Shown here piece after piece: positions 3,911 to 63,482 of a stretch of DNA of 64,000 bases. The DNA comes from Temnopleurus reevesii. Taxonomy: Eukaryota > Echinodermata > Echinoidea > Temnopleuroida > Temnopleuridae. The translations under genes and the position numbers were made by a program. The notes beneath the pieces were generated by a model. The model ran no database searches and was not told where the DNA came from. It worked only from the letters and a program-made list of their open reading frames with translations. How positions within the stretch are numbered: the stretch's first letter is position 1; each line of letters opens with the position of its first letter. Location of the stretch: positions 50,408 to 114,407 of the forward strand of contig BQKZ01000077.1 of NCBI GenBank assembly GCA_036244855.1, read 5' to 3'.

Positions 3911-3950
3911 TCCAGTTCTCTTGTCTAAAATTCTTAATCTTACGTCATTG

Positions 3951-4794: not shown

Positions 4795-4945
4795 ACTGCT
4801 AAGTCACCACAACTAATTTCTTCATGTTTGCCATTTCTCCACGAATCTCTTCTGCAATCAACGTCTGTTTTCCCTCTAAAACTGCCCTGCGGCTTTTCTT
4901 ACTGTGACCAAGGGATTTCAACCATATTGAATTCTCCAGTTTAAA
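4795..4945 (-). pseudogene. Decayed copy of terminal exon next to the functional exon
   Basis: Matches the last 140 bases of the FAM81-like terminal exon and also the fragment at 3285-3410, sharing with it the diagnostic cggcttttcttactgtgacc. This shows that the pair of neighbouring copies already existed before the larger duplication marked by the N at 4252. Confidence 0.6.
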
Positions 4946-4979
4946 TCTCCAATAAAATCTGACTACATCTTAGTCACTG

Positions 4980-6723: not shown

Positions 6724-6755
<32 letters not shown>

Positions 6756-34543: not shown

Positions 34544-34894
34544 ATGTTGGTCGTGGGTAACAGGGCTTCAAGATGGCTGACTTTGGCCGGCTTTCTGGTA
34601 GCGATGCTCGCTGGCATCGCGCCGCGGGAAGCGTGGGCGGAGGGGATCCGGGCTGCCGACGCCATGGATGCAATCAGCTCGGGCAGGCAGCAATTCTTGA
34701 AGGGGCTTAGGGGGGCCCTAGCTGCCGTTGCTGCTCAGAAGGATAATCTGGTTGAGGAATTACTGGCTGATGTTGAAGACGAGGGAGATGAGGAAGATGA
34801 AGTCGAAGACGAAATGGAGAAAGAACTCAATCTCTTAGATCCGCCGAATGTAAAGACAGTGGAGATACGCTTACCGGAAGCGGAAATCACAGAG
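34544..34894 (+). CDS. PAM-like exon 1: signal peptide, acidic segment, start of PHM
   Basis: 117 codons, phase 0, donor gtgtgt. The frame is open 48 bases further upstream but the first ATG is at 34544 (context aaccATGt). Hydrophobic core WLTLAGFLVAMLAGIAP, then AWA as a likely cleavage site, a short helical Ala/Leu part and a run of Glu and Asp (EDEGDEEDEVEDEMEKE). It ends in VKTVEIRLPEAEITE, aligned with the FALDIRMPGVTPKE start of PHM. Confidence 0.85.
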
Positions 34895-37800
34895 GTGTGT
34901 AGCATTTATTTAATTGAGGTGTTTATTTTTGTCATCAGTTGAGTTGCTTATTTATGTATTCAATTCAATTCAATTCAATTCAAAATAACATTCATTTTAT
35001 TCCTTCAACATAAAAGATAAATCAGTGTTGTACAGTGTCAATTTACAATTGTAATAAAATTATAGGGTAATTAGAACATGAATCATTAAGATACATAAAC
35101 GAAATTGAAGGAAAAGGGCGCAGATCCAGAAGCAGAGCTTGTGTTGGATGCACTGACAAATGCAACAACAAAGATAATACAATACATATACAATACAATT
35201 GAGTTGTTTATTTTTGTATTAAGTTGAGTTTTTTTTATTCATGTATTCAATTGAGTTGTTTATTCATGTATTTAAATTCCGTTGTTTATTCATGTGTTCA
35301 AGTGATTTGTTTATGTATACATTTCATAACAAGCATATTCATTCGTAGAGGTGTACATAATAAACATGTAAAAACACCCAGCACTGATAACGATGGAAAA
35401 CTCTGTATATTCTCATTCACCATGAAACCGAGAATCCATATAACTAAGGTATTTTTGCATGCCTAGATGATTATTGATATTCATATTTGAAAGCCTTTTA
35501 AAGACTTTCAAAGCGTACTAAATTAGAAGCGTACTAACACAATAACATGCTCAAATGTACTTTTTTCCTTGTTTAAAGCGAGTAAAACTTATATCCGTTG
35601 TAGATTTAATCGCACGATACACATATTTGTTTTTCTTTGTAAATTATCATTTATTCCGAAACATGGAATATGCGAACATCGTACAGAGCATAATTTACAA
35701 GTATACAGATACATTAAACAATATACAATTTGAAACATTACATGAATACTTTATAAATCAGATATGTAATAGAAAGTCGGCTACCGACTTGTATAGAAAA
35801 AAAGTAAATAGAAACAACAATAAATCAAACATACAAAAGATATGCATTTTTTAAACAGCGATAATGAAACACCACCGCGATTTCAAAAATTTAATTGCAT
35901 TGACAATCAAAATGAATTACCGTATGGTGCAGCATGCATAAAAACGGGTTTCTTGAAAAGATGTGTTAGCATGGAGATGTGTCTACTCAAACTGTAGATA
36001 TGAATGTATAATTAATAAAACAAACAATGCATCAACATTTTCTCGTAAAAAAAACGACTGTATCCAGAAATGACTTTAGGGGGCGGAAGGAGGATACCGT
36101 TGACGTGAAAAATGATATAAAACCAAATAAGTGATGTAGAAGGGCAAAAAGAGGCTGTCACTGGTTTGACAAAAAGCAAAGCAAAAAGAAAAAAGTCCTC
36201 ACGTCTAGAAAAAATAATGAAGGACGGAAGGGTGGCCGAAAGTGTAGCAAACAAACAACCCTAAAATCTTAATTTGTGTCCAAGGTTTAAGGAGGGGGGG
36301 GGGGGGGAATAGAAAGGGCAGCTGGTGGTGTGTCCGTCAAACTAAACAAGAGAGTTTTTTGATCAATTGCTTTTTGCAAAAGCAATTGATCAGGGAAAAG
36401 TGAGACCCCTCCCTTTGTGCACCACCAATAGATGCTCCCCCCGTGTCCCATTATGTTACCAGAATTCACTTTCCCCATTTTCCACATAATTATGTACGAC
36501 CTGTCTTTGTTAAATGTGAACTTACTCCAATACACACACAATCACTTCGCGACCACTGTAACTATAAACTCTTTCTCATAACGCGATTCACAGTAATCAT
36601 TAGCTTCTCATAATACGCTGTAAAAATTGACGTTAAAACACCATGGGGGGGTGTTGCTCAAAAGTTGCAATTGATCGCAAGTTGCAGTTGATCGGAACGT
36701 GCCAATCAAAATCATTGTTTCATGCGCGTATTGTTAAATGCGCATACCGTGCGCGAATGAAAATGCGCGTTACAATTTGCAAAGTTACAGTTGATTTGCA
36801 GTTGATTTTGAGCAACACCCCGCAAGAGAAAGAGAAGAGGAGAGAGAATTTACATGTCACGTGTTTATTGCAGTGGAACTGAACCCATTACAACCCCCTC
36901 CATTGAAAAATAAGAAAAGGGTCACAACTTTCGTTAAAAACTCGCGCTTTATATGGGGGCGCCGTGGTTTAGTGGTTCTGATTCTCGTCTTTCAACCATA
37001 GGGTCGTAGGTTCGAAACTCACCCATGGCGTTAATTCCCTTCAGCAATAAATTCATCCACATTGTGCTGCACTCAGCCCAGGTGGGGGAATGGGTACCTG
37101 TTAGGAATATTATTCCTTGAAATGCCATGTACGCTAGTGTACGCCGGGCTAAATCCAGGGTAATAATAATGCAATGTGCCTTGACTACTCCGCAGAGTGG
37201 ATACTTGTGCTATAAAAATTGCATTTATTACTATTTATATGCGCTGTGACCTCTATTGCCGCTGGATTTGCCCATGGATCTCGTTTTCTCTAGTTGTCTT
37301 TGTTAGATGTGAACTTACTTTGATGTATAGTCGTGGTCACTTCGTGAGCACATGACTAGAAAATAATTGTCCCTTAAACAAGATTCACCGTAATCATTAG
37401 TTTCTCATATACGCTGTAAAATTTGATGTTCAAGAGAGAAAGAGGGGTAGGGATTTTATTGAAGTGGAACTGAACCCATTACATACAACCCCATCCACTG
37501 AAAAAGATAGAAAGTGTCGTTACTTCCGGTAAAAAAACGATTAGGAACAAAATGGCTCTTATATCTCGGGCTTTAAACTTGATTCGCCTATATGGAACTC
37601 GTTTTTCTCCATATCACTTGTCTTTGTTAGATGTGAACTTACTCCGATGTACTCGTGGTCACTTCGTGAGCCCATGACCAGAAAATATGTCCCTTAACAC
37701 GATTCACAGTAATTATTAATGTCAAAACTTGATTGTTCTTGAAGTAAGGTGATTGCAATGGAACTGAACTCTTAACAAGCCCCCTCCCCTCCATTAAAAC

Positions 37801-40800
37801 CAAATAGATGAAAAACAAAAGGTCGTAATTTTTGCTAAAACAAGATCATGATTATGTGTTTCACAATTCTGATTATTCTGAGTGAAATATTTATTTGTCA
37901 CTGTAAATGAATGGGATTTATCTTTGATGACAATAAATTATGTACTCGATTTAAGCAGTTTAAGGGGGATAACCCGATTTCAGAGTGAAGTATATTTCAT
38001 ATAGTTCACTCCGAAAAGAGCGGACTTTATAGAATTAGATGAGATAAGACACCAAAATGTCACAAACTAGCCTCTTCATTTAGAACTACCCAACTACATT
38101 TTGGGAATAATATTTGAAGAAAAAAAACCATATATTTTTATATTCATTATTATTACATTGATAGGGTAGAAATTGGCAATGAACATATATTACCAAGTAA
38201 TTGAATATCATATCGCACACTTAACGAGGATCGGATGAGCTTGAAGGCCCGTGTTAATATTGATTCGGAGAAAGTTCTGGGTGCAGTCATTGTGGATTAT
38301 GCCTGTTAATATCACATCAATCTACAGGTTGATCTAGACCGCTTCACGGTTCGCGGTAACACACCTTTTTGATGGATTGAATAGAACATTTATTTCCTTT
38401 TGCAAAATACGTAATAAACATACGAAAATACAAGATAACAATTAAAGGAGGCGAAGACCCTTGTGCCCCGGTCACATAGGGCCCCGAAAGCAACACGATT
38501 CACCCCGACTCTTTGTTCTGAGGCAGTTAACTGTGAATTAACAAAGAGTCGGGGTGAATCGTGTTGCTTCCGGGGTCCTATGTGACCGGGGCTTAAAAGC
38601 AAAGCTTGTGTCGGGGTCGCCTTAACAAGGAGCAAACAAGAGACAATATATATTTTTTTTTATAAACAAAACGAATAGACGGATACATGTATTTGAAAAT
38701 AATAAATTAAGTGATACAATAAGATGTGAGAGAGAAGAAGGGAGTGGTGTTCAACTGAAAGACAAAATATCACCTAAATATAAAAATGGTATACATGCAC
38801 ATTTATTTATCTATTTATTAGATGTCTATTATTCACATAGAGCGTAGATCATACGGCCGCCTTTTCCCCGCCCCATCTCCCGACCCCAGTCCTATCCTAC
38901 CTTTCCCCCTTTCTTCTTCTCTTCTTTATTAAGGTAATTTTATGATTTACGAATATGTTTAGTTAAATATTTATTTCTAGGGACCAGCGTCTCACAAGCG
39001 CTGCTTCCTGCTGGTTCCAATTTCAGTTTTTGCTTTACTTATTCTCTTTCGATGACATATCCGTACTTCTAAGTTTATGAATCTTTTCGTATTGGATGTA
39101 TATATCGATGAATACTATTGTGTGAATGAAAAATGAAATAAAACGAATCTTGAATCTTTAATCTTGAACCTTAAAGTGTATTTTGAAGCGGTTCGGGTCA
39201 ACATTTTGGTGCTTTTATGAAACCAACCAGTCTTTAGCCTTGCTGATCAGCTCCGACAGATAGCAATCTCATCAATGACAATTTGATTATTGTCGATGCA
39301 AACAAAATTAATATCAAATTTGACCGCGACACACTCAGAAAAAACGGTTCACAAAGTGTGAATTTGTTCGCGGAAAGGTGCAATATGCGCCAAAAAAATC
39401 GAAAATGTGCAGGTGCATACTTTTGACGTACACGTTCAGCAAAAGGTTGTGCCAGGTATAATGAAGTATTTCAAAACCCTTTTATAGTGGTAAAAAAGGT
39501 AATTTCTAATTGTTCACATTTAGCACGTATGCTCTAGCCAAAATTATGAACAGTGTAAATAATCACAAATGAATGACCCGCGCCTTTAAAACATAGATCC
39601 TTACTCTCATGACAAAAACAAACAAGACAAATCAAAATACATTCAAATTGGCATTTTAAACGTGTTGCTTGTCAGTCGGTTGGGTATGATAGCACAGTCA
39701 CATCAACAGACTGATCACACCCTGCTCTCAAACCAAATCAACAAAATTCCAATTATTACCGTCTTCTTCCATGTGAAATTTCTTGTTTGAAGGTTTTTTG
39801 TTTTTCTTAATCTCAATTGTGCAAATTCATTGATTCAACAAAACATTAATTTATAATCAAGAGTTCGAATTTGAGAGAATTTCGTTTGGCAACAGGCTGG
39901 GATCGGCCTCTAGGTGTGACTGCTGCATTACTTCCTCTCTATATATGACGGGAAAGGGTGTATTGAATCCAAATGAACGCCTCTAAATCAGAAAACCTTA
40001 AGCAATATTGACAGAACAGAGCGACGTTAAGAGGAGCCACACAGTTGCGTTTATAGACTATACGTAAGCCCATAGTGTTAATAGATGCTAATTCCTTGCG
40101 TAGCACAAAGTTGTTCTTGGCAACCTAAAAGCTTGCCCGAGGCTTGCCCGACATAGGAACAGGTAATGTATGCAAACGGGATAATCGTTCAATAGACCGG
40201 TTTACTAATTAACAGACTCAAATTTATTCACGTTTCTTCTCAACGAACAAATGTACGATAGGCGGGTTTACTAATAGTGAATTTTATGAATACTAAACAT
40301 ATTATTTTAATGCGTTAATCAGCTGTATACCTGGTATACAAGGGACAAATTAGTTTCCAAATCGTAGAAAATCCTGAATCTGCTCTGACTTCCGACTTGA
40401 AGTTTGACTCTGAGGAAATTCAGCGTTCCTTCAGGCGAGAAATCTTACATTAATATGCAATTTCTTTCGATTCTTTTCTCTAAACTGAGTAGTCAGAATC
40501 TCAATAAAATATCTTCTTCTTCTGAAATATTTAGTTACACTAACACGGTATAAACTATTTCCGTAAAATAAAGTGGGTCATAGATATTAGAACCGCGCGC
40601 CGTGCATTGAACTGCACAGATACAACAATCACAAGCTAGAACCGATTTGAATAGCCTTACAAAGGATCATTGAATTGACTTTTAACTTAATTTTCGGAAA
40701 TAGTTTATATGGTGTTCACTTTATTTAAAAAATCGGATCGTAAGCCAGCCGAAATGTTTGCGATGGGCTTCTGGCTTGCGTTATCCATAAAAGCAAATAT

Positions 40801-43800
40801 GTGACCGGGCTTTTATATACAACTATCGACATAATATGCGGAGGCGGGTAGCTAGATGGTCAAAATTGGAGCCGGGGCGGAAAAAAGGTTCGTTCGACCT
40901 TCATATTCATCAATATGACTCTCTGACATTTCGAGACCAGAGAATTTCACGGTTGCAAAATGGCTGGTGACGTTTTACAGATGTAGACGTATTCGTGTCA
41001 TGTATTCAGAAACTGACGTTTGATCTTCAAATGCAATGCGATGGGATGAGAATAAATGGCAGTTGTAAAGTAATGTTATACAAGTAACATGCAATATGTA
41101 TATTCGTTCACAATGCAAATGTATTTGTATTTTATTTCCCAATCTCAAAAATGATGAAAACACATTTTTCTAATAAACGGTGGTAAATATTATATTAGAC
41201 TATTTCATGCGTATAAATTATGACAACTAGCATTTTAAAATATATGTTATTTTTTCATAGAATTGGGTCGAACGCAAATTCAATGCTCCTTTGTAATGAT
41301 ATTCATATCGGAACCGGCTTGTGATTATTGAGTCCGCACAGTTCAAGTACACGGCGTAAAGCCCCGGTCACATAGGACCCCGGAAGCCACACGCTTCTCC
41401 CCGACTCTTTGTTAATTCAGTTAACAAAACAACGAGTCGGGGTGAATCGTGTTGCTTCCGGGGTCCTATGTGACCGGGGCCTAAGGATCTTTTTTCTCAT
41501 GACCCAGTTTATTTTACTGAAATAGTTAATATCGTGTTTGTTGCTCTTCCCTAGGGTCCAGGAACATAAGATTTAGATTGTGATATGCATTTATATACAC
41601 ACATTCTGCATGAGAAAACCAAGTGTTAAATTCGCCTGGTATCAGATCAGCCATAATTATGAAAATAACTCTCTGACATTTTGAGACCAGAAAGTTTCAC
41701 AGCTGCAAAATGGCTGGTGACCTTTTAGATGTAGAGTAGGGATATTGTATTCGTGTCATAATATGCAAAATGGAACAAGATTAATGACGAGTATATAAAG
41801 TTGTAAAGCTATGTATAATATGTATTAAATTCATTTTCACTCTCATCTTTTTCTCTCCCACCATCATCCTCATCTACATCCTTTTCCTCTTCATCCTCAC
41901 CTCCATCTCTTTAAGATTGGCAAAAATCGTCGTATTAATTCTGCGCATCGAAATATCATACTGATCAATCATATTAGTTTTTCTCAGGGTTGTCTTATTT
42001 TTTTCAAGCAATTTGCTTACAAAATAATCCTTCTTCTATGATTTACATGTTATACAGTGTATGTTGACAAATTGTCATCACAGTTTAACGTATTTGATTT
42101 TATAATTATGTTCATTTTTGTGATCTTTTGTCAAAATGATATTCTTGAATCATGTTATTTTTGCTGTACTTCGAAATTATGTTGTATGCAGAAGAAAAAA
42201 ATAAACTAAATTAAAACTAAACTAAATATACCATATACACGCTATTATACTGAATTACGTAATTTTGATTAAAAAAGCTGGCTTTGATATATATATACAT
42301 TCTGCACCGTAAAAAGTGTGTTAAATCAAACCGGTCCTAGAGAACAGTATATATTTTTTAATATGACGCTTTGACATTTTGAAGCTAGAAAATGTCACGG
42401 TTGCAAAATGGCTGGCGACGTTTTAGCGGTAGAGTAGGGATTGTATTCGTGTCATGATATTCAAAATGGAACAAGATTCATGACGAATTCATAAAGCTAT
42501 TCAGGTATTCATGTATGTATGGTATCACAAAAAAATGGATTTTGATTAAAAATACTGGATTTGAAATACATACTATACAGCAAAACAAAAGGTTCTACTT
42601 ACAAACGTAAACAGTAATTTTTCATAAATCATAGCAAACCACATTCTCGATAAGTACGACCCATATAAACACGATTAAAATAGCACATCTTGTGCAACTG
42701 GCTCGAAATCCACGAGTAATCTCAATACTTCCGGGTATAATTATTTCTTTCCTTACACATGGGTCCCATGTGACAAAATCGTTAATTATAAAATGAATTA
42801 TTGGAGAACAGAATCTCCAATATTAACGAATGTTTCACCTTCTTTGTTATTGATATGTGCACGGCGTTGATTTATTCGATGGTGATGATGTTATATTAGG
42901 ATGGTGACGGAAAGGTGGGAAGCGGTATTAAATTTTAGATTTGAGCGTCAGATAAAAGAAATAAATCAGTTTTTACCTCGAGGAACCAGTTAACAGTATA
43001 TACGTGAATTACGCGCTGTACTGTCATGAAAATGCTTCTATATTTATTTTCTATTTAAAATAAAATTGCGTTATTTCATTCCAAAACAATACTATCGAAA
43101 AATATGTAAGCTATCTTAATTTCATTCATTTATCGTCATTATCCCTCCCCTCCAATTGTTTCACGATCATGATGTGGAGGAATGCAACACGCCCGACACT
43201 TTATTTTGTTACTTTGACTATACCACGCGATAAAAGACATACAAACACTTTTATCAAACATTTTGGAACAACTTTACTACATCAACACGAATATCAGATC
43301 GTTAAGAAAAAATGGAAAACATGATATCAGAATTTTGTATGTAACATTGAACGTTGAACGTTCCAACATATCCACACACGAATTAATGTATTCAGTAGGA
43401 TGCTATGTCATGTACGTTTAAAACCAACCCTTGTATAAACATGTATGGAATTGAAATATCACATGTACGCTTAAAACTGACATGTATGCCCAACATGTAA
43501 AATAAAATGCACTCCCCGAGGATTAGAAATTCTTATGGGGAAACGTTTGATTAACACTAATGAGCAGGCAGTATCTAACAATCGTTTAGGAGTCGAATTA
43601 CGAGGGTTTTTTTTGTGGGGGGCGGGCGGGGTGGGGTTCCTCATTACGGTATTGTACATGCCTAAGACCCATGGGAGTGCATGGACCCCTACTTTGTATG
43701 GTACTGGAATAAATAATTAATATACTGCAGAAGCAGCCAATTTTGTGTTAAATAATTTGTAAAATGACCCAAATTTCCAAACCCGACTCGGTGTATTACA

Positions 43801-46800
43801 AAGAGTTCGCCTCATGCATAATGGATGTTTTATGAATGCACAGCACACTAGACGTTCAACCCAATAGAGCCATTGTCCAATAGATTGATTACTGAACATA
43901 ATACCGTATTTTTTTTATCAGAGTGCATATACTGTACTTATGTACACCCCGGACATAGCGACATTTTGAAATTGCACTTCTTTGATTCTACGCTTCTTTA
44001 TTGATTTGTTTTTAAATCAGTTGTTTGTGTATTCATTCATTACAATGAGCATTAATTCTGCACGATGTAACCCAATCGCCAGGATTTTTTGGGGGGCAAA
44101 ATTAGGGACCACGTCCAATCGAAAGCAGATGCAGATTCTTTGTGTATTTATACTGGTACACGAGGGTATAATAGCCCACACAATCCGATCAGCGGTAATT
44201 TTAGAGATTTTATTAACGGTGAACATGACATGTGAATACTGATCCAAATCATATATAATACTAAAATCCAGCGTGGAATTTAATATATTTGATTAAAAAT
44301 AGTNCTAAACTAAATATACCATATACACGCTATTATACTGAATTACGTAATTTTGATTAAAAAAGCTGGCTTTGATATATATATACATTCTGCACCGTAA
44401 AAAGTGTGTTAAATCAAACCGGTCCTAGAGAACAGTATATATTTTTTAATATGACGCTTTGACATTTTGAAGCTAGAAAATGTCACGGTTGCAAAATGGC
44501 TGGCGACGTTTTAGCGGTAGAGTAGGGATTGTATTCGTGTCATGATATTCAAAATGGAACAAGATTCATGACGAATTCATAAAGCTATTCAGGTATTCAT
44601 GTATGTATGGTATCACAAAAAAATGGATTTTGATTAAAAATACTGGATTTGAAATACATACTATACAGCAAAACAAAAGGTTCTACTTACAAACGTAAAC
44701 AGTAATTTTTCATAAATCATAGCAAACCACATTCTCGATAAGTACGACCCATATAAACACGATTAAAATAGCACATCTTGTGCAACTGGCTCGAAATCCA
44801 CGAGTAATCTCAATACTTCCGGGTATAATTATTTCTTTCCTTACACATGGGTCCCATGTGACAAAATCGTTAATTATAAAATGAATTATTGGAGAACAGA
44901 ATCTCCAATATTAACGAATGTTTCACCTTCTTTGTTATTGATATGTGCACGGCGTTGATTTATTCGATGGTGATGATGTTATATTAGGATGGTGACGGAA
45001 AGGTGGGAAGCGGTATTAAATTTTAGATTTGAGCGTCAGATAAAAGAAATAAATCAGTTTTTACCTCGAGGAACCAGTTAACAGTATATACGTGAATTAC
45101 GCGCTGTACTGTCATGAAAATGCTTCTATATTTATTTTCTATTTAAAATAAAATTGCGTTATTTCATTCCAAAACAATACTATCGAAAAATATGTAAGCT
45201 ATCTTAATTTCATTCATTTATCGTCATTATCCCTCCCCTCCAATTGTTTCACGATCATGATGTGGAGGAATGCAACACGCCCGACACTTTATTTTGTTAC
45301 TTTGACTATACCACGCGATAAAAGACATACAAACACTTTTATCAAACATTTTGGAACAACTTTACTACATCAACACGAATATCAGATCGTTAAGAAAAAA
45401 TGGAAAACATGATATCAGAATTTTGTATGTAACATTGAACGTTGAACGTTCCAACATATCCACACACGAATTAATGTATTCAGTAGGATGCTATGTCATG
45501 TACGTTTAAAACCAACCCTTGTATAAACATGTATGGAATTGAAATATCACATGTACGCTTAAAACTGACATGTATGCCCAACATGTAAAATAAAATGCAC
45601 TCCCCGAGGATTAGAAATTCTTATGGGGAAACGTTTGATTAACACTAATGAGCAGGCAGTATCTAACAATCGTTTAGGAGTCGAATTACGAGGGTTTTTT
45701 TTGTGGGGGGCGGGCGGGGTGGGGTTCCTCATTACGGTATTGTACATGCCTAAGACCCATGGGAGTGCATGGACCCCTACTTTGTATGGTACTGGAATAA
45801 ATAATTAATATACTGCAGAAGCAGCCAATTTTGTGTTAAATAATTTGTAAAATGACCCAAATTTCCAAACCCGACTCGGTGTATTACAAAGAGTTCGCCT
45901 CATGCATAATGGATGTTTTATGAATGCACAGCACACTAGACGTTCAACCCAATAGAGCCATTGTCCAATAGATTGATTACTGAACATAATACCGTATTTT
46001 TTTTATCAGAGTGCATATACTGTACTTATGTACACCCCGGACATTGCGACATTTTGAAATTGCACTTCTTTGATTCTACGCTTCTTTATTGATTTGTTTT
46101 TAAATCAGTTGTTTGTGTATTCATTCATTACAATGAGCATTAATTCTGCACGATGTAACCCAATCGCCAGGATTTTTTGGGGGGCAAAATTAGGGACCAC
46201 GTCCAATCGAAAGCAGATGCAGATTCTTTGTGTATTTATACTGGTGATACACGAGGGTATAATAGCCCACACAATCCGATCAGCGGTAATTTTAGAGATT
46301 TTATTAACGGTGAACATGACATGTGAATACTGATCCAAATCATATATAATACTAAAATCCAGCGTGGAATTTAATATATTTGATTAAAAATAGTGCGGTA
46401 TATTAAATCCCGAAACCGCATATTTAACTAACAATGGATAACTCGCACATGGGCATTGAAAATTTTCTTCGTCATATTTGTTGAAATGTGTTGTTTTCTA
46501 TTAAACGTTGACTCGCACCTTTTTGTTTATAGCCAGCGTCTGCCTAGTGTTGATGACGCTGCGTCAACGCGAATCTATGGAGGAACGTCTTTTACTTCAC
46601 GCTTATTGTGTATATGCACGTCGAGCGCTGGACGAACGCCTTCAGCGTTGGTCAAGCATGTTTCCTCCCTATTTCTGCGATCACTCAGAGCCATGACCGT
46701 AGGGCAGATCATTGGTCATAAATGCAAATGTGTAAGTCATCCTTCAGAAGACCAATTGTCTGCATTTAAATCAATCTACGTGTTCTCGCCTAAACTCTAA

Positions 46801-52800: not shown

Positions 52801-55800
52801 GCCTCTCCATGAATGCTAATTGCTTGGATTTGTATTATGAGAAGCATTTCCAATTCAGCAAATTGCTCGTCGAAGTCGTTTGACATTTTGGTTGATTCTT
52901 TTATTTAGGGCAAGGCTTTGGGAAGGGGATTGTTGCGTGCGAAGAGCGCAGACGTGTCTTTTCTGAAGGCCGACTCACATCTTTGCATTTTTTGCCTGCG
53001 TTGGCCCACCGTTTTTTTTTAATTTGAAACGCTCCCGAGAGCATAGTATACGCTGACCGGACGGTGGACTGATGTTCGGCTTGCGTTCAAGGTGCGTACG
53101 CCTGACATCAGTCCAACGTATGACCTGCGTCTTTGTGCGTCCAGGGAGCGTTTTTCATTGAACAAAATGATGGGCCGAAGTAGGATAAAAACGCAAAAGT
53201 GTGAGTTGGTTTTCATGCAGGCGTTTTTAAGTTATCGCCTTCTCCTATTGCATATTATGCAGTCATGGCAGTTTATGTGCTTCTTAGCACCTGAATGAAT
53301 TTTAAAAAGGGGGAAATACCGAGCTGGAGGATAGATAAAGTGTTCCCAAGATACCTTCACGTGCTGCTTTTTATTGTCAACATTAAGCATAATGTAAACA
53401 AAGCTTAGTTTGTGGATATCGCTATATTTACGCTTATACGGTGAACGCTTATACGCTTATACGGTGAACAGACAGGTACACCTAACCCTTGTTTCAAGCC
53501 ATATCAGACAATAAAACATGGGCTCAAAACAGTCACAATTCCATAACAAATAAGTATTCACCGGGTGTTCACTTTCTAAACACCGCGGGTAAACACCGAG
53601 TAAATGGGGTATGATTGGCGGATTGCTAGTTTCTGATTTGTTATATACTGTCAACAGATAATAAACATGCTGTAAAGAAACCTCAGTTTGTTGATTCGTG
53701 TTTGCTATCTATCCACGCTTGCTTGCCAACACTTTTTCACGATAGACTTAATAGAAAGGAGAATGAAAGAGAATTGGAATGCGCAATCACCTGAATTGAA
53801 ATACCTGCATTGATCCACATATTTTCTTTTGTTATTTACAGAACCAGCTCTGAAACATGATCTAGAAAGGTGAACAAACTTGACTCTTGTGATGACACAA
53901 CCTGATTGACATTTGAAAGAAATTTTTAGGGGCGTTCCCAACTAAGCCAACATAAAAATGAAGAAAAAAATATTATAAAATATATGAAACACATTTGGGC
54001 CCTCTTTCACTGAAAAGGGTATTGATAATGGTATAATACATCAATACAGATCAACTTGTATTTTCATAATAGTGGACCTTTAAATAATCATTTGGCGTGG
54101 TTCCAGATACGGAAGTGTTTGAAAAGGTCCTATTGGGAAAGTCTGTAGTTATAATAGAGCGGTGTACGACGGTTCTCCAGTTAGGGAAGATGAGGACAAA
54201 AAAAAAATAATATAGGTCCCCTCCCGCTCTCCCCCCCCCCCATCCCTCAGCTGAAACACCCTTGGGCATCAATTATCATTATTAAGTCATGTCTTCTGTG
54301 GAATTTCTTAATACACGTAGGAGAGGAATAATTTTACTAATGTTATTGCTTTTGAAAATGTTCGCAAACCTCGTGACTGTGGTTTCGATATTTGTTACAA
54401 TCAAAATAATTGACTTTAAAATCGATATTTAGGGCAAAAGCGTTTCAACAATCAATTTAAAACGCCAGGTCAATACCTTAAAAATGAGGTGCATTTGTTA
54501 AAAAAAAAGGGAGATATGACGAACAGACTCACGCACATACACACATATGCTTATTTTTGTATTCATATGGTTTATTGATTTCATGATTACAAGTCGCAAG
54601 AACATTATTATAAAGAATTTAATGAGAGATAACCTAGCGATAGAAGAGCAGTGGTTAATAAACAAATATTATTCACGTTACCTGTAATCGAAGAATCTTC
54701 CCAATCAGATAATTTTTTTTCCCGCAAGAATGATGTTTATGACTTAACGACCTTACGGCATATCATGCATAATCATGAATAATGAAGCTATAAACACATC
54801 TATCTATGGGGAGCATATAGAAGCACAGGGATGTTGATGATACAAAAAACAAAGAAAAAATGAGAGGAATTGCGCAAAAGGTGAAAAACACTATTGTATT
54901 TGCTCCCTATATATATATCTTTCTCAACTTATAGGCGCATATCCGGGAAGAAAGAAAAGAATTGCAAGAAAAAGAGTTGAAAATATGCCAGACTTTGCCC
55001 TTGGCAAGTGATAACTTTTTTTTTAATTTCTATTTCTATTTTTTTTTCTTTGCTCATTAGAAGAAAAATCTTGAAACACACTTTGCCACCATTTAGGTGC
55101 ATTCCTGGATACGCGCCTGAGCAATATCTGGATTTATTTTCTCTCCATAAGTCCCGTGGATGATGATGATGATGAATAATTTATCCTTTCTGTTTTGTTA
55201 TGCAGAGTGGCAGCACGCTATGTACATCTACGTCATTAACAGAGGCCCTGCAAGACATTGGTGAGTATATGTAAACAGCTTTATGGTTTCTCTGTAATAT
55301 AGCGAGGGGTAATTTCAAGACATTATGATATTGTTTTTGCTGAAAACATTCTCGACTGCAAACATTCTCGACTGCCAGATCCTAATAGGCGGGTTTACTT
55401 ATGTATTCAAATTTATGTGCGTTTAACGTAGTTACGTGGTATTCCATAGACCGGTTGATAACAATAAGACTACAATAATTGGAATACAGTTTGCATACAT
55501 TACTTGTTGCTATGTCGGGCAAGCCTCGGGCAAGCTTTCGGGTTGTAAAGAACAACCTTTGTGTTAGAGGCATGCATAAAATTTGCATCTATTAGTCAAC
55601 CCGCCTATTTCTAGTAATGGTTGAAGGTGTACATAAACAAAGCTGTGAAAATATTATGTTTGAACAGCAACGATTAGTGCTCGGAAAAAAAAACCTACGG
55701 AACTCCAAATATATTGCCTACATAATAGACACAGACACACTGCGCAGGAATAAAGGGTTTGTGGTATATTTTATTTCATTTTCATATCTTATTTGTGCCT

Positions 55801-58800
55801 GTATAACTTCTTTCTTTTAATAAATGCATTCTGTGTTGTTTTCATCATTCTGAATGTAATGTCATAGGTTATACTGCTTGATTTGATAATTTTCAAAGAA
55901 TAAAATCATAATGAGTGACAATGTCTTGAAAGCAGTCAATATGAATTTACGCAAATCACTAAGATTGAAAGGGTTGACTGGAAGTTTATTCATATGGATA
56001 TCAAGTGAATTATATCTATGAAACTTACAAAAATAAAAAAATAAAGGGGCTGCGGCTGCGAATAATTACTGTAATCTATGATATGATTCTTTTAGTATGT
56101 AAATGTGTTGTGTTGCCTATGCAATATAATGCTAAAATAATTGTTGTTAGGACTCCTAGAAAAGAAGACACAAAGAAAAGAAGTACAAACTAAACTGCAG
56201 ATTTATCCATACTCAACAATTACATTATCTTTTATGTTCATTTGTTTGTATTCACTCATTTGTTTTCATCAATTCGTAAAGATATTAATATTGGAATTAC
56301 AAAATTTAGTCGGTACAAAATGTAAGTGCATACATTGTTTTATCAATTGCGAAATTTCAGTCTCAAATATTTTGTTTTACGAATGCCATCCCATTATTCT
56401 GAGAGCTATGATATCGTTTACATTAAATCTTTTTATGCTCACAAGGAGCAGTTTGTTTTCTGACATTGATCCATTATTTAATACGCATTTGTAAGAAATA
56501 GGAAATAAAATATTTATATACCAAATACAATAACACTACTTTGAATTATTAATTCGTAGAGTGGTTCATAATTAAATTCAAACGAGTCTCTTAATCGTCT
56601 CATTTCTGCCAAGTCAGGCAAGCAAATTTCAAGGTTGCCATGGTAATGCCCACCAGAAACACCTTGTGGCGATCAATATAACATCACATCGCGATCGATA
56701 CTGCCCATCGCACTTTCTGTTGCCAAGGTAATAAAGGCAATGCGTCCGGGGATCTTGCGAAATTTGTTCAGTTGGTTACATGATATTGTTGAAAACAACA
56801 TTTCAGTGCTATATTGAGAGTATGAGTGAGAATATGAACCGTCGCATTGAGGTACAGTGTGGTGAGAAAATGTAGAGGCTTCCAAATTCTACGTTTTATC
56901 AAGTTATTCTTAAAAATTTGTATCTTTGTGTATTTATAGAGTTTTAGGCGCGACCAACACAAGCTGTGTTTTCTTGATATGCACCCTTTGCTTTTATTTT
57001 ATCATACTTAACGATTCATTGGACTACTTTTTAAAGCATTTGCTTCTTATTTTGAAGGTTTTTAGTGATTTGTCTATGAGAAGGTTTTCTTGTCATTGAA
57101 GGACGAAGATGATTTTATTTGAATTTGAATTTAACTGATTTTTTTCCTACAAAGTAATGCAGATGTCATGAATTTTTGCTGGTGTGCTTTCATATATAGT
57201 TTCATTAAAATTTATTATCAATATTATAATCATCGTCGTAATTGATAATGTTATTATAAATATTCTTGTTCATATAATTGTTATTCATCATTATTATCAT
57301 CATCATCGTCATCATCATCATTATTTATGTTGTTTATTATAGATATTATAGATATATCTGCATACATAAACGAAAATCAATATCATGCTATATTATGCTC
57401 ATAAAGATGTTGTAGATTTTTAGATTTTAATTCCTTAACTACTACCTTGGAAGATGAAGCATTGATTATCTCAAGTCGTATGAATCACTCATCTCATTTC
57501 CACTTTGACGATCCTCAAATTGGCCGCATCCAAGTGTGAAATCGTCCAGTCGGAATAATATTAGTCTTCGTCTTTTCCCTCCCCAGTCGGTTTCAGCCCG
57601 CTGATCAACCAAGACGCTGTCACGCACATGGCTCTCTACGGCTGCCCCGATCAAGCGGCCCGCAAAGAAGACTACTGGTAATGATAGATGAATAATTGAG
57701 ATCGCTCTCTATCCCATTTTCCTTATTTCAAGGCAGAATAATAAGATTTTCTCTTCTTTTCATATTTTGAATAATTATCTTCAGGGCATGATATCATGAA
57801 GGCCACTGTGATGATAAGATCGTTGATTCCAATAATGTTATACATGTAATTCTAAGAGCTTGTTTGCCAAGGGGTTACTTAGATCCATTATCAGGATTTC
57901 AGAGAGAGAAACAAACATTTTCTCCTTGCAAGTTTGAAAATAAATTCTTCGTGAATGAAAAATTAACGAAAATGAAATGCATTTTCAACTATATATATTT
58001 TCATGTATCAACGGAGAGCCCACTAGTAACTAATTGAAGGAAAAGTGGTTTAAAAGAGAAATTGACAAATCTGTTGATAGTATTATTCTTAAAGTTTGGA
58101 TTCAAATGGATAAAATTTATGCATCAAACATATGATTAATTCATTAAAAGCCATAGTGTAATATTGAGACTACAATCAATCATTTACACATGAAGCACTT
58201 TCTCTTTGCGACCCTGTGCTTTCTATAAGACGTTCCGCGACTGTGGATTAGGTTGTGGATACAAATAAGGTGTTATTTAAGAGAGAAAAGATAATTTTTT
58301 TTTCAGTAATGTACTTAATAATAATAATGATAATACATAGCATTTATTAGGCGCTAAATACGGATGTTTCTAAGCGCACAGTATTATGATTTTGAAAAGA
58401 TTAACCGTTAAATTAGGTGAAGAAAAAGAGGAGGAATTATGATATGGAAATACACTTCCCATATTATTTGCCCTTCATCCACACACCAACCTTTCCAAAC
58501 ATTTTAAATGATTCGTATGTTTTTACATTGTTCCTTAAACCCTAACATTTTCTTAATATCAACAGGTCTTGTACAGCGAAAAACACAAGTGGTATATGTC
58601 AAGGGCCCGTAGCTGTGATGTTTGAATGGTCACGTGATCGTTGTGAACAAACTCTTGCCATGGGAGATGCAATTACCGTTGGGGGCGCTTTCATGCATAA
58701 TGTTGTTTTGTTGGTGCAATACAAAACGGGTAAGTAAATATAACTTATTTATTTCAAATTCAACCACAATTTGTTGGATATTTGATGCGGAGGTTTGAAA

Positions 58801-60869
58801 ATGTATTTTATGTTTTCACATATTTCAGCAAAAACAAAACTACTAAAATAGTTTCCAATCAATAAAATTTCTGAGAAACTTATTTGCAAAGACCCACAAT
58901 TTGAAAACAACAAACAAACAACAACAATGTTTAGTTTACATAAAAGCATTATTACAGAAGAACTTGATTGAGACTTCCAATGAATGTATATTTAAATTCA
59001 GAATCACCAATTACCCCCCCCCCCAGGGAATCTATTTTGAGCTACATGTACTACATGTAACAAATTTATTTGAATTGTAGAATCATCTTTGTTTTTGTAC
59101 GCTATTATTATTATTTGTGAGTTCAAGCAATCAAATTGATCTTATTGCATTGTGAATCCAAGAGAACGTACAAGTTTAATTAAATGTTTTCACTTGCTAG
59201 AAATTTAAGTGTCAAGTTTCGGAAAAAATTATGCTGATATGACCAATAATTCATTACGATATTCATGATATATCATACTTTTTTTAGAGTGGATATTTTT
59301 CTGTCAACAATATGCAAACAAATATGACAGGTTACATTATGTTCATGTATACTCTCACAAGGTTACTGAAATGTTTGTCTTTAATCTTTTTCGTAGGTGG
59401 CTTTGCAGACGATTCTGGACTAGCACTCAAGATAATGCCTTCTAGGTATGAAAGTTTGTATTCTTTTTCATATCAACTTCTTTCTGAACATCAACAAAAA
59501 CATTTTTGCTGCAGATTATTTTATTCATTTATTATGTTTTATTTACGTCATTAGAATGAAAAAAAAAGATATTGAAACATACGAAATGCGAAAGAAATAT
59601 AATATATGTAATTGTTAAAAAAACATGTGGCGCTTATATTATTTGAAAATGATTATGACATTGCCATAATCAAGACTAAACAAGATTATTATATAAACAA
59701 TTAAAATGGTATTCAATAGATGGTTTAATTATTAAGCTTCGCTAAAATTTGTTTCATTCTCAAATTCATCATCATAATCATCATCTTTATGATAATTGGG
59801 TAAGACTTCCATATGGAAGTCTTTCCGATAATTGTAGTACAAGCTTATGTGTCAGATTTCACATAGATAGTGTGAAAACGAAATCATCATCCTTTTTCCT
59901 CCACATTCCAATTATTGATATCATCATATTAATCAGCCCCACAATCCCCCTCTTCGTATTACTATCATAATTATCCTTTTAACCCGTCTCTTCCTTCCCA
60001 CCATCATCTTCATCCTGTGCCACAACGTCATCACTCATCCTCCTCATCCTTACCCTCTTCATCGCGCTCCGTTCGCCCGGAAAATTACCCTCACATAGTA
60101 ACAAAGAACGAGGAATGTTCGAAATAAAAGAAGCCGAACTCCGAACCCATTCAACTCCACGGCGTGAATGTTAACGAAGAAAAACGAAAGTTGATTCGTC
60201 AGACCCGGTACTTTAATTTCCTTGGTAATTTGTCGAGGCTAGAGGAAAATCAAAACACATCATCCTTGCAATTTATTTTTGAGCAATTTTTAAGCAAAGA
60301 AAAAATTCAATGAATACCTCCTATCGTGACAATAATCATTATAACCTTTCTGACTTCTTGTTATTTACGCAAGTCTAAATTACCTATATAATGGTAAGTC
60401 ATAAACGATTTATTTTACAGTTAGAGACACATATGTCATCCCGGCAGTGGCATACTAATCAAGGGCTCTCAAAAACCAAATTCATCATTACTATCATCAT
60501 CATCATCATCTCTATCACTTTGTGAACGTCATCACACCACATTCGACATCACTATCACCACCACCATCATCATCCTCATCATCATCATCATCATCATTAT
60601 CATCATCACAATCATCATCATCATCACAATCATCCTCGCCATCACCACCACCACCACCACCATCATCATCATCTTTATCTGAGTGTCCTCTACTAAATTA
60701 TATGAACAAAAATGTCACCAATTACCAAATGATCCGATGTCTTCTTTTGCAGTAAGGGTGACAAAGATATCATCCGTGCAGTGAAATACTACTCAAGGGC
60801 TCTCAAACACTTAAACCATCATTACCATTACCATTACCATCATTAATTACCTCGTCATCACACCACAGT

Positions 60870-60917
<48 letters not shown>

Positions 60918-63482
60918 TATACTCATAAGCTACACCACCACCATCCCCACCATTACCACTCACTTCGAAATCATCATCATTTCCATCATCACAACCATCA
61001 TTGTCATCACCATCATCATCATCATCAACAACAACATCATCATCTGAGTCTTTTTTATAGCCACTTGTGCAAAGATAAAAACAATACCCAATAATCTGAC
61101 TTATTCTTTTGCAGCGACGGTGACAAAGATGTCATCCGGGCCGTGGAATACTACTCGAGAGCTCTCAAAAACCCAAACTGCGAAACCTCAGAATCTTCCA
61201 GCTCGAACGAGCTCGACAATGACGTCGCCTTTAGCAGCTCCGCGCTGGCTGTCGAGGAGGAGATCGGGAGTGACTATTCCGCCATCGACTACCTGCAGTC
61301 GATACTGGAGGCCAACTCTGAGTGGATGAGTAGTAGCGAACCTCGATATGATTACGGCGGAGAGCCTTCGTATGAGCAATATGGCGGCGTTGATTCGTAC
61401 ATCGACAACGCACTCCCTGAGGAATCAGTTTATCCTAGCTCTGCTTCCGACTGGTCAATGAGGCTACAGGTGGGTTTATGATTACTTTCAGTCATTATTT
61501 ACTCTTCATTGTTTCATTACTTAATTTTTTTTATCTCCTTTGATTTCCTTCATTTTGCATTTTTTCATCCTTCTTTTACTTTTCTTCTTATCCTTTTCTC
61601 TTTTCTGTTCCCTGTCCTTTCCCCCTTTTTTTTTCTTATCCTCCCCCTTTTTGTTGCTTTTCACCCCGTTTTGCAAATTAACTTTCTTTTTATTCTTATC
61701 CCCTGTCCTTTTTTTCTCTTTTCTTCTTATTCCCTGCCCCTTTCCCCTTTTTCTTACCCCCTTCTTTTTCTATATTTTTCCTCTTCCTCATGCCCCTTTC
61801 TTCTCATTCATCTCATTCCCCTTTTCACCCCGTTTAGCTTATATTCATTTAATTGTATTTTGCGTTTTCAAATATTTATTACCTCTCCTTTGTCCTCATA
61901 TTTCCCCTCCATTCATGATTAGTGATCTCATCTACTAGACTCATGATTCAATTTCGCGCCACCCTCTCTTCTTCTCTTTTACTTTTTTTTAATTTACCTG
62001 CTCTTTCTTTTCATTAATTCCCAATCTCCTATTCATCCCCACCACTCCTACATCTTCAAACTTCTACTTCACCATTCCATAAGTGAAGGGTATTATGAGC
62101 ATCATGTCAACATTTTATAATCGGATTAATCTGATAATTTAGCTGATAATTTATCTGATAATATATCTGATAATATATCTGATAATTAATCTGATGGTTT
62201 TTATAGCGCAGCCACTCTATGGACATACTGCACTCTGATGTTAGGGTCTGTGGATATTGTTATAATAGAATAATTCATACAATACAAAATATTACAGAGA
62301 AGCTTCATGAAATAAGTAAGTTTTCAACAACCTTTAAAAACAACTACAAACGGAGATAAGCTTATTCTGAAGGTACAAATAAGGCACTTCAATAGTATGA
62401 ATGACGCTCAAATGAAAAGTAGTGATTGTTTTATAATTAATTCCTGCTAACGCTCTGTTTCAGGACCTGTGGGATTCTGCGAGTGCACTTGCATATGGTA
62501 TGATCCTCCGGGGTTGGTGGCCGCGTCAAGGGGACCGCGTTATTGGCCAGGTAGCTGGGATCGCGACCGACTCTTCTGGCCAGCTCGCTCTGATACATCG
62601 CGGAGATAGGCGCTGGGAAAATAGGTAAGAAATTATTATTATCATTTTTTATTTTCATTATGGATGATATTTGAATGGAAATTATTTATATTGAAAACTA
62701 GAAAATATATATGTATGATTATTTTTCAATGTTGGTATAAAAGTAAGAAGATGATTTACTTAGTCAGTGCAAGATATTGCAACACAATTTACTTTCATCT
62801 GGTATGAAAAAAAAACCCACGATAATAAAAGAAAATAAAGATAATTGTACAAAATAAAGCATGTTGGAAACAGGGACAGATATGTCTTGGCGTTGATCGC
62901 TGAGAATTGCCAGAGTTCCAATCTATCTGCTATAATTTTCAATGTAATATCATCCACAGGCGTTTTAATGATATTTACACAATCTCTATATTAAATACAG
63001 CAGCGCTACAAAAGTCAGGTGCCCATGCATTAACTAGTTCAAACATCATGACTACATAATTGTAAAAGCCAGTTCTGATTTCAGTGGGAATACAAAACAG
63101 CATTACATTGCTTTCCAATTATTTTTTTAAATCAACCCTAGAAAAAATAGAGCGTTCTTTACTTGTATTTGGAACCATTAGAGGTGCCCTAAAAGATTTA
63201 ATATTACCTTAAACAGCCGATTTTCAGGTTCTTCATTTTCTTTAACATGCACAAAACTTTTAGGATTACAAAAATTGAATGCTCAAAAGCAGGACATGGG
63301 TTCCACTTTGGATGGTTCGATATACTTGTTTTATGTTATCCATGATGATATTTCTTTGCATTTTCTTTCAGTGACTTTGATGAGGAGGATAAATTCACTC
63401 TGGAGGATCCAATCTCTGAAGAACTCATCTTGACCCTTGACCCTGCCACCGGGAATGTCCTAGACTCTTGGGGAAGTGATCT
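34544..63482 (+). CDS. PAM-related protein: half PHM domain (no CuM lobe) fused to PAL, 3' end outside window
   Basis: Eight exons join in frame (34544-34894, 55206-55260, 57587-57677, 58566-58729, 59397-59445, 61115-61469, 62464-62624, 63372-63482) and give 445 residues, still open. Residues 1-32 look like a signal peptide ending AWA. An acidic stretch precedes PHM at about residue 101. PHM N-lobe: VEIRLPEAEIT, DAVTHMALYGC (145-155), SCTAKNTSGIC (167-177), TVGG and VVLLVQYK. Relative to rat PHM, His107 is Thr148, His108 is kept (His149) and His172 is Gln217. The half with the CuM ligands (HTHH motif) is absent. A Ser/Glu/Tyr-rich linker (238-355) leads to PAL, recognised by GQVAGIATDSSG and IHRGDRRW with the active-site Arg. 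Likely secretory and perhaps a lyase; peptide hydroxylation is not expected. Confidence 0.82.
36358..36391. repeat. Perfect short palindrome
   Basis: ttgatcaattgctttt and aaaagcaattgatcaggg around a tgc loop, with fully complementary arms of about 15 bases. It would form a stable hairpin in DNA or RNA. It has no U-rich or gene-end context. Confidence 0.8.
36645..36821. mobile_element. MITE-like element, family ggggtgttg, best copy
   Basis: Starts ggggtgttgctcaaaagttg and ends gttgattttgagcaacaccc. The interior is built of cgcaagttgcagttgatcgg and gcgcgtattg words. About 177 bases, no coding capacity. Confidence 0.85.
36955..37225 (+). mobile_element. tRNA-derived SINE
   Basis: A head with a polymerase III A box (tggtttagtgg) and, 36 bases on, a B box (ggttcgaaact) is followed by a tRNA-unrelated body (tcatccacattgtgctgcac, acgccgggctaaatccaggg) and a tail ending attattactattta. 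Fragments of the same body, reversed, are at 465-600 and 52235-52315. Confidence 0.8.
38465..38592. mobile_element. MITE-like palindrome, gccccggtcacatagg arms
   Basis: Left arm gccccggtcacatagggccc and acacgattcaccccgactct; right arm agagtcggggtgaatcgtgt and ggtcctatgtgaccggggc. Near-perfect hairpin of about 128 bases. Confidence 0.85.
40070..40280 (-). mobile_element. Inverted-repeat element, family taataggcgggttta, reverse copy
   Basis: Shares in reverse ttgcccgaggcttgcccgac, atagaccggtttact and gataggcgggtttactaata with 55384-55610. Confidence 0.6.
40555..40690 (-). repeat. Dispersed repeat, copy 2 (inverted)
   Basis: Reverse-complement relative of 25365-25535: ccgtaaaataaagtgggtca, gcattgaactgcacaga and ttgaatagccttacaaagga. 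Confidence 0.55.
40905..42500 (+). repeat. Three direct repeats with core gcaaaatggctggtgacgtt
   Basis: Units near 40905-40985, 41663-41790 and 42360-42500 share ctctgacattt-gagaccag, tttcacggttgcaaaatggc and attgtattcgtgtcat; the last two also share caaaatggaacaagatt. Spacing is about 700-760 bases. A fourth at 44450-44590 is the copy within the 2.09-kb duplication. Confidence 0.75.
41361..41480. mobile_element. MITE-like palindrome (gccccggtcacatagg) nested in a dispersed repeat
   Basis: Same family as 38465-38592. The flanks (cacggcgtaaa and cctaaggatc...gacccagtttattttactg) continue one another when compared with 25430-25480, so this element jumped into an existing repeat copy. Confidence 0.8.
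42217..46394 (+). repeat. 2.09-kb near-identical direct duplication with N at the junction
   Basis: Copy A 42217-44303 (2087 bases) and copy B 44305-46394 (2090 bases) start ctaaactaaatatacc and end gattaaaaatagt. I noticed only two differences: one base near 43959 versus 46044 (acatagcg, acattgcg) and a 3-base insertion in copy B (actggtgatacacg). The N at 44304 marks the joint. Very probably an assembly duplication. Confidence 0.9.
46505..46698 (+). other. Small open frame of unknown nature
   Basis: An open stretch following ttatag, reading for example MEERLLLHAYCVYARRALDE and SSMFPPYFCDHSEP-stop. Its base composition is more coding-like than the flanks. No family recognised; may be a transposon remnant. 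It sits in the large PAM-like intron, just after the duplicated block. Confidence 0.15.
47329..47892. mobile_element. Long inverted-repeat element, complete copy
   Basis: Left arm starts aaaggagaacttcacccaga and right arm ends gtctgggtgaagtgacccct; about 200 bases of each arm pair, including gaggggtgtaaat-type and ctccatttactttgtaca words. The central 130 bases contain a short ttcttctttttctaga inverted pair. The window start (1-222) has one arm of a second copy. Confidence 0.85.
49621..49802. mobile_element. MITE-like palindrome, second cttagctatcctctt family copy
   Basis: Arms ccaccctcttaacatagaca and tgtctatgttaagagggtgg are perfect inverses, as are cacaagaagttgagacg and its partner. Ends ggggccaattgcacaaaatg and caatttcgtgcaatttgcct. 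Confidence 0.85.
49980..50500 (+). repeat. Direct repeat, two units about 370 bases apart
   Basis: Units 49985-50110 and 50360-50500 share aaagtagg-ttgggcag, aaacaataccaatat, gatttgccgcaagcttc, agtcgttttgattagacag and aaacacgtcat. Confidence 0.75.
52235..52315 (-). mobile_element. SINE body fragment, reverse orientation
   Basis: Contains cagatatccattcacttcat and gcagcatggtgtggat, diverged reverse complement of the body of the 36955-37225 SINE. Confidence 0.4.
52593..52886 (-). other. Open frame of 97 codons, unknown
   Basis: Begins at an ATG (CCAAAATGT) and reads MSNDFDEQFAELEMLLIIQI, then DSRWKWEEDFAPISEKRAQI and RLWWRICHVIRQI. GC content rises above the flanks and the amino-acid mix looks protein-like. 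No family recognised. It may be a remnant transposon gene or a small intronic gene; a MITE follows upstream at 52964. Confidence 0.25.
52964..53211. mobile_element. Inverted-repeat element with gccgactcacatctttgc end
   Basis: Left aaggccgactcacatctttg and cctgcgttggccca; right gggccgaagtaggataaaaa and cgcaaaagtgtgagttggtt. Inner arms ccggacggtggactgatgt and acatcagtccaacg also pair. Confidence 0.7.
53430..53468. repeat. Short tandem repeat cgcttatacggtgaa
   Basis: Two and a half units of cgcttatacggtgaacgctt. Confidence 0.7.
55206..55260 (+). CDS. PAM-like exon 2
   Basis: Acceptor tatgcag, donor gtgagt. Encodes SGSTLCTSTSLTEALQDI; the Cys aligns with rat PHM Cys81 (TYFC). Small and separated by 20.3 kb from exon 1, but phase and alignment fit. 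Confidence 0.75.
55384..55610 (+). mobile_element. Inverted-repeat element, family taataggcgggttta
   Basis: Begins aataggcgggtttactta and ends ttagtcaacccgcctatt; contains gggcaagcctcgggcaagct. It lies 120 bases after PAM-like exon 2. Confidence 0.7.
57587..57677 (+). CDS. PAM-like exon 3, CuH-site loop
   Basis: Acceptor ccccag, donor gtaatg. Encodes GFSPLINQDAVTHMALYGC and PDQAARKEDY. Aligns with MDTVHHMLLFGC of PHM; the first of the paired histidines is Thr. Confidence 0.88.
58566..58729 (+). CDS. PAM-like exon 4
   Basis: Acceptor caacag, donor gtaagt. Encodes SCTAKNTSGICQGPVAVMFE, then WSRD, ITVGG and NVVLLVQYKT. Matches the C-x(4-8)-C, YAWARN and RVGGETGSKYLVLQVHYGD blocks of PHM, with Gln in place of the copper-ligand His. 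Confidence 0.9.
59397..59445 (+). CDS. PAM-like exon 5, end of half PHM
   Basis: 49 nt between tcgtag and gtatga. Encodes GFADDSGLALKIMPS, aligned with NHKDCSGVSVHLTRVPQ of PHM; rat Cys186 is Asp here. Its phase fits exon 6 directly. Confidence 0.75.
60409..60475 (+). pseudogene. Decayed copy of the start of PAM-like exon 6 (oldest)
   Basis: After a ttattttacag acceptor the sequence tgtcatcccggcagtggcat and aatcaagggctctcaaaaac matches the first 65 bases of exon 6 with substitutions that destroy the frame. A CAT microsatellite follows at once. Confidence 0.7.
60482..61050. repeat. CAT/CAC trinucleotide microsatellites
   Basis: Two blocks (60482-60680 and 60815-61050) of catcatcat with cac and tat variants separate the three copies of the exon 6 start. 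Confidence 0.9.
60741..60830 (+). pseudogene. Second copy of the start of PAM-like exon 6 (frame still open)
   Basis: cttcttttgcag acceptor, then codons K G D K D I I R A V K Y Y S R A L K H, parallel to DGDKDVIRAVEYYSRALKN of the real exon. The frame runs into a CAT/TAC repeat and stops at TAA. There is no donor, so this copy would act only as a terminal pseudo-exon. Confidence 0.75.
61115..61469 (+). CDS. PAM-like exon 6, linker
   Basis: Acceptor ttttgcag, donor gtgggt, 355 nt. Starts DGDKDVIRAVEYYSRALKNP and continues as an acidic, Ser-, Glu- and Tyr-rich low-similarity region. No PHM C-lobe motif is present. GC and codon use are higher than in the surrounding DNA, as expected of coding sequence. 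Confidence 0.85.
61490..62060 (+). repeat. Pyrimidine-rich intron stretch
   Basis: About 500 bases of mixed T and C right after PAM-like exon 6. Long open frames rich in Phe, Leu and Ser follow from composition. Confidence 0.75.
62120..62196 (+). repeat. 12-base minisatellite, atctgataatat units
   Basis: Six or so units of tctgataatttatctgataa type with small variation, in PAM-like intron 6. Confidence 0.85.
62464..62624 (+). CDS. PAM-like exon 7, start of PAL
   Basis: Acceptor tttcag, donor gtaaga. Encodes DLWDSASALAYGMILRGWWP, then GQVAGIATDSSGQLALIHRG and DRRWEN, aligned with WPGVYLLPGQVSGVALDSKN and FHRGDHVWDGNS of rat PAL. Confidence 0.92.
63372..63482 (+). CDS. PAM-like exon 8, PAL
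   Basis: Acceptor tctttcag, donor gtaagt. Encodes DFDEEDKFTLEDPISEELIL and TLDPATGNVLDSWGSD, aligned with PIEEDTILVIDPNNAAILQSSGKNL of PAL. The reading frame continues beyond the window (next exon not present). Confidence 0.9.

Follow-up and report, generated by a model that had tools for sequence, protein, structure and literature searches.

A gene of the sea urchin Temnopleurus reevesii encodes PAL, the lyase of peptide amidation, preceded by only one half of PHM, the hydroxylase with which PAL is joined in PAM. The gene begins in a stretch of 64,000 nucleotides (hereafter the window) corresponding to C77:50408-114407 of the 558-Mb assembly, where C77 is contig BQKZ01000077.1. We consider it probable that this is an ancient PAM paralogue, whose product is a soluble PAL with a copper-free half-PHM as a structural or docking module, the CuM lobe and the CuH copper ligands having been lost. 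In the usual account, peptides are amidated either by PAM or by PHM and PAL as separate proteins; the half-PHM PAL adds a third design, which is conserved in echinoderms and hemichordates.

The architecture was confirmed in T. reevesii. All eight exons that the original prediction had placed in the window were rebuilt at the same coordinates, with GT-AG borders and compatible phases (Table 1), and exon 2, chosen by a splice-constrained scan, is borne out by three urchin proteins. The complete gene has 13 exons, of which exons 1-8 are inside the window and exons 9-13 lie beyond it on C77; the PAL exons there (C77:114962-121684) join in phase into an open frame that runs to a stop codon. The product of 692 amino acids begins with a hydrophobic N-terminus and an acidic coil, followed by the CuH (N-terminal) lobe of PHM and, after an acidic linker, by the whole PAL propeller. 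The closest proteins are those of Strongylocentrotus purpuratus (LOC587198, P0002; 80% identity over the aligned part), Lytechinus variegatus (LOC121416351, P0001; 76%) and Diadema setosum (P0003; 51%); exon 1 is 70% identical to P0001 over 114 aligned residues and is lacking from the P0002 and P0003 models. The identity of the half-PHM rests on a match of PF01082 to residues 108-218 (E 9.9e-8; 31.8-32.7 bits, the higher value in this match, against a curated cut-off of 30) and on a PDB sequence search in which PHM chains matched the same part of the protein (best E 4.2e-6). Among the relatives, the half-PHM of Saccoglossus scored 40.4 bits and that of Asterias (P0006), at 21.9 bits, fell under the cut-off, while PF01082 did not match the half-PHMs of Ptychodera, Anneissia or amphioxus at E 1. 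The results of a fold search were filled by the PAL domain and say nothing on the fold of the half-PHM.

The CuM lobe is genuinely missing, as had been claimed. Exon 5 ends and exon 6 begins in phase 2, the DNA between them is free of N, and the junction is traversed directly by three other urchin proteins and by sea cucumber, crinoid and hemichordate proteins. In a tblastn comparison of seven ungapped PAM CuM lobes with the window and C77:113700-122500, no CuM lobe was found at 57587-63482 among the 14 best matches; the best of them (E 0.003, 15631-15882) lies far upstream, is gapped with 23% identity and was read as chance. The same seven queries, as a positive control, matched the CuM exons of a PHM-like gene on contig C4479 with E down to 2e-22. 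The T. reevesii protein does not match PF03712, the profile of the CuM lobe. The PF03712 search of its own genome, which matched another gene only, is weak evidence because it missed the C4479 CuM exons as well. Exon 6 may conceivably keep a remnant of the last CuM strand (YY...Cys motif), as the phases of the C4479 CuM exons (2-1-0-2) would permit an in-frame loss of three exons. In a profile test the best match fell there in four of seven PAMs, but no score rose above those of shuffles (a fraction of 0.15-0.54 of shuffles scored as high), and the model shows a helix.

What remains of the copper site was examined by aligning 12 half-PHM proteins, from urchins, sea cucumbers, starfish, crinoids, acorn worms and amphioxus, with 12 picked PAMs. 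The residues called in the original prediction are correct: Thr148, His149 and Gln217 of T. reevesii occupy the places of rat His107, His108 and His172, and the CuH site of PAM is thus not retained. No more than one of these histidines is found in any of the 12 half-PHM proteins, and the surviving one varies: urchins and sea cucumbers retain His108, crinoids and acorn worms retain His172, and Asterias and amphioxus have none; the Acanthaster model is without the region of the first two positions and carries Gln at the third one. All 12 PAMs keep the three histidines together with His242, His244 and Met314, which we take to be the numbers of the CuM residues, as we do for the PAL residues given here. 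The half-PHM proteins, all 12 of them, keep Arg533, His585, Tyr654, His690, Arg706, His786, Asp787 and four PAL cysteines; the zinc and catalytic residues are likewise intact in the T. reevesii exons, a check that the original prediction had proposed. The CuH histidine numbering is from the excerpts of PMC6123673 to which we refer, in which alanine at any single CuH histidine gives an inactive enzyme. On the residues present, it is well supported that the T. reevesii protein would be unable to hydroxylate and is probably a lyase, as the original prediction had proposed.

The product would most likely be a zinc-dependent peptidyl-alpha-hydroxyglycine lyase that is soluble and either secreted or lumenal. 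A membrane span and cytosolic tail occur in many PAMs, and soluble PAM forms exist. The T. reevesii protein ends shortly after the last PAL strand, without the span and tail of PAM; no membrane-like run was found in its last 60 amino acids with a crude pattern, and none of 13 proteins has a dibasic site in its linkers. Since the linkers are without a dibasic site and the C-terminus is without a membrane span, the protein is probably soluble and uncleaved. Its substrates would be hydroxyglycine peptides that a separate PHM or PAM has produced, and by cleaving them it would finish amidation. A separate PAM gene, which had been predicted to be needed, is present on contig C1584, with the HH motif, late PAL exons, and membrane and tail exons; its tail is 94% identical to the PAM of Diadema antillarum.

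Half-PHM PALs are widespread. Protein searches with P0001 and with an alignment, of which the best 120 of 946 and the best 120 of 1466 matches were considered, listed them in three urchins, two sea cucumbers (one assigned to the group by its tree position), two starfish, two crinoids, two hemichordates and one amphioxus, the last (P0128) more degenerate than the others. The half-PHM architecture thus recurs in relatives across echinoderms and hemichordates, as the original prediction had proposed to check. A second Apostichopus model, P0009, which is without the half-PHM and has a low-complexity insert, was excluded from alignments and counts. Full PAMs occur alongside half-PHM PALs in echinoderms, Acanthaster having both, and the fact that both of its records lie on 780,615-nt contigs suggests that they share one scaffold. 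In a tree of the PAL columns without the long gastropod row (Babylonia PAM), a branch supported at 96/96 separates the 12 ambulacrarian half-PHM rows, including T. reevesii, from the rest, with the hemichordates beside the echinoderms. The amphioxus protein groups with PAMs, and a single origin that includes it has a p-AU of 0.17 with the gastropod row and of 0.049 without it, a borderline rejection. The paralogue would already have been present in the last common ancestor of echinoderms and hemichordates. The original prediction had not extended to the breadth of this distribution, the grouping of the ambulacrarian proteins in one clade, a half-PHM as conserved as PAL in urchins, the additional pair of cysteines, or the position of the truncation on an intron of a PHM gene.

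Within urchins, the half-PHM is conserved as strictly as PAL (identity to T. reevesii, half-PHM/PAL: S. purpuratus 87/85%, Lytechinus 85/83%, Diadema 69/70%). All 11 half-PHM rows that cover the two PHM N-lobe disulfides retain their four cysteines, and two extra cysteines, a fifth in the N-lobe and one after the half-PHM, are found in 11 of 11 ambulacrarian database rows and are missing from amphioxus P0128. That N-lobe position is without a cysteine in all 12 PAMs, and six vertebrate PAMs carry a different extra one. Because it is as conserved as PAL in urchins and has gained this cysteine pair in Ambulacraria, the half-PHM looks maintained. In T. reevesii the pair would be Cys192 and Cys259, and a disulfide between them may tie the following segment to the lobe. 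The CuH lobe would persist as a copper-free module that is still folded and that the extra disulfide probably locks, and we propose for it roles in folding, granule sorting or partner docking. The PHM peptide is held largely by the CuM lobe, and peptide binding of the old style by the remaining lobe is therefore unlikely.

The gene structure is consistent with how the lobe may have been lost. Exon borders 1/2, 2/3 and 3/4 coincide by eye in place and phase with introns of the C1584 PAM gene, and borders 4/5 and 5/6 with introns of the C4479 PHM-like gene, at the same codon and phase. We conclude from these shared borders that the truncation sits on an intron of the ancestral gene. This position fits an exon-bounded loss of CuM. 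On the favoured explanation, the CuM lobe was lost at an exon boundary and the CuH ligands were lost as well. The PAM and PHM-like genes have one more N-lobe intron than the half-PHM-PAL gene.

Several explanations compete with that of a working lyase that uses its half-PHM. The lobe might be a passive leftover, a slowly decaying N-terminal spacer before a functional PAL, and indeed the copper ligands have drifted differently in each lineage, the profile matches of Asterias, Ptychodera, Anneissia and amphioxus fade, and between classes the lobe is conserved less than PAL. Such a spacer would not be expected to equal PAL in conservation among urchins, to keep its disulfide cysteines in all covering rows, or to share an extra cysteine pair across Ambulacraria, and we consider this explanation unlikely. 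Slightly less probable still is a lyase acting mainly on non-neuropeptide substrates, such as other hydroxyglycine amides or ureidoglycolate, on which PAL is active; this would account for an extra PAL beside PAM, as a full PAM in the same phylum and genome leaves a second PAL unneeded for its products, but the catalytic residues are the ordinary PAL set and the substrate proposal is itself conjectural. That the whole protein is a pseudo-enzyme with neither domain catalytic, for example an extracellular scaffold, would agree with the dead half-PHM, the acidic linkers and a separate PAM that could provide PAL activity; the seven zinc, calcium and catalytic PAL residues, kept in all 12 proteins, make it improbable. 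An artefact, with CuM exons absent from the contig or skipped by the model, is least credible of all. The contig does carry 2.09-kb copies around an N at 44304 and duplicated PAL exons near single Ns, but the sequence is free of N from 44304 to the window end, no CuM similarity was found there although the control gene was, and the same junction occurs in the three other urchins and in sea cucumber, crinoid and hemichordate proteins, so that for the architecture this explanation is already refuted.

The ancient-paralogue explanation has points of its own that weigh against it. With the gastropod row included, support for the ambulacrarian grouping falls to 77/70 (11 rows), and the drawn fork is weak. 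Outside urchins, in other classes and hemichordates, half-PHM identity (31-44%) is below that of PAL (47-54%). The first extra cysteine of the two crinoids aligns a few columns off, the Cys259 segment is modelled at low confidence (block means 61), and the Cys192-Cys259 bond is a prediction. At C1584:54705-75141, 20 kb read as N over the expected CuM lobe and early PAL of PAM; because its CuM part reads N, the intactness of PHM in the T. reevesii PAM is presumed from Diadema antillarum and starfish PAMs. The lyase activity and secretion of the half-PHM protein are themselves predictions from sequence. A bolder form of the proposal, which we hold as tentative, is that of a second family of lyases spanning Ambulacraria and possibly all deuterostomes. 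In it, one lobe of a two-copper hydroxylase would have been severed at an intron, deprived of its copper and fitted with a new disulfide. Its retention, which in urchins is as strict as that of the catalytic domain, would reflect a new task in peptide amidation outside catalysis, such as directing PAL to its place or tethering it to PAM or to cargo.

The half-PHM PAL resembles PAM in its domain order, in a PHM N-lobe with the cysteines of two disulfides, in its linker, in a PAL with the full checked residue set and in shared introns; it differs in having neither CuM lobe, CuH site nor transmembrane and cytosolic tail, and in its extra cysteine pair and one fewer N-lobe intron. With PHM and the copper type II monooxygenases DBM and MOXD it has the PF01082 lobe in common, whereas the PF03712 lobe and the copper ligands are lost. 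The sections of PMC6529398 drawn on here report that PAM occurs across metazoans, that insects have PHM and PAL as separate proteins, and that planarians have three PAM-related proteins; those of PMC6669573 report scorpions with PAM plus PHMm and PALm. Monofunctional PALs (insect and planarian, PMC6529398; scorpion PALm and Drosophila PAL-2, PMC6669573) are, in these sections, likewise lyases without a working hydroxylase. The T. reevesii protein would be soluble like scorpion PALm and planarian PAL, whereas many insect PALs retain a membrane span, and scorpion PALm consists of a signal peptide and catalytic domain (356-366 amino acids; same sections of PMC6669573) rather than having a conserved half-PHM in front. 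Animals differ in how many PHM units precede PAL: the same source gives Lymnaea PAM four PHM domains and one PAL, so that PHM is multiplied there and cut to a dead half here. A half-PHM PAL was not found described in the titles and abstracts of the open literature searched, a scope outside which most subscription papers fall. In databases these proteins are named 'uncharacterized', 'Copper type II ascorbate-dependent...' or 'PAM B-like', and automatic annotation may assign them an impossible hydroxylase activity. They offer a natural way to test whether the PHM CuH lobe folds and functions in the absence of the CuM lobe, and for what reason a second, soluble PAL is retained beside PAM.

Table 1. 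Features of the half-PHM-PAL gene in the window (window positions).
Feature	Position	Strand	Basis
Exon 1: initiation codon and hydrophobic N-terminus (by eye like a signal peptide), then an acidic helical region and the first half-PHM strand; residues 1-117	34544..34894	+	gene model
Exon 2: half-PHM, residues 118-135, Cys123	55206..55260	+	splice-constrained scan, gene model; matches P0001-P0003
Exon 3: half-PHM with former CuH ligand positions Thr148 and His149	57587..57677	+	gene model, urchin protein comparison
Codons of Thr148-His149, at the place of rat PHM His107-His108	57622..57627	+	alignment
Exon 4: half-PHM with Gln217 (His172 place) and extra Cys192	58566..58729	+	gene model, alignment
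Codon of Gln217, at the rat His172 position	58717..58719	+	alignment
Exon 5: final half-PHM strand; both borders match C4479 PHM-like gene introns in position and phase	59397..59445	+	gene model
Exon 6: conserved segment after the half with Cys259, then acidic linker; CuM lobe absent	61115..61469	+	gene model, tblastn
Exon 7: start of PAL propeller, Arg401 (rat Arg533 position)	62464..62624	+	gene model, alignment
Exon 8: PAL; gene runs on past the window to C77:121684	63372..63482	+	gene model

Elsewhere in the genome, the C4479 locus (C4479:36000-45900; 1279-9901 within it, with a further piece at 1-250) is a two-lobed PHM-like paralogue and another dead PHM, the contig ending soon after. 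Its HH is changed to QN, His172 to Gln and THAHS to AVTQE, so that the CuM histidine pair is lost and the Met kept. Genome searches with PF03712 and PF01082 mainly matched a gene on C3730 that is DBM-like by eye and missed exons of both the half-PHM-PAL gene and C4479, hence they are not exhaustive; the C3730 gene encodes both lobes of a copper type II monooxygenase and by eye resembles DBM/MOXD.

The window holds five Ns, each single, the last at 44304. Two 2.09-kb blocks, 42217-44303 and 44305-46394, are 99.8% identical and flank this N inside intron 1, and are probably an assembly join of one stretch. At C77:113700-122500 (885-1482, 2219-5107 and 6028-7490 within that locus), PAL exon 9 has two extra partial copies upstream, 93-95% alike and about 190 bp apart, whose splicing onto the gene would be out of frame; pieces of exons 9-12 recur there around single Ns, as if two haplotypes had been joined. 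An open frame at 20812-21060 (+) contains an EF-hand-like stretch and, judged by eye, is probably an exon of the calmodulin or troponin C type.
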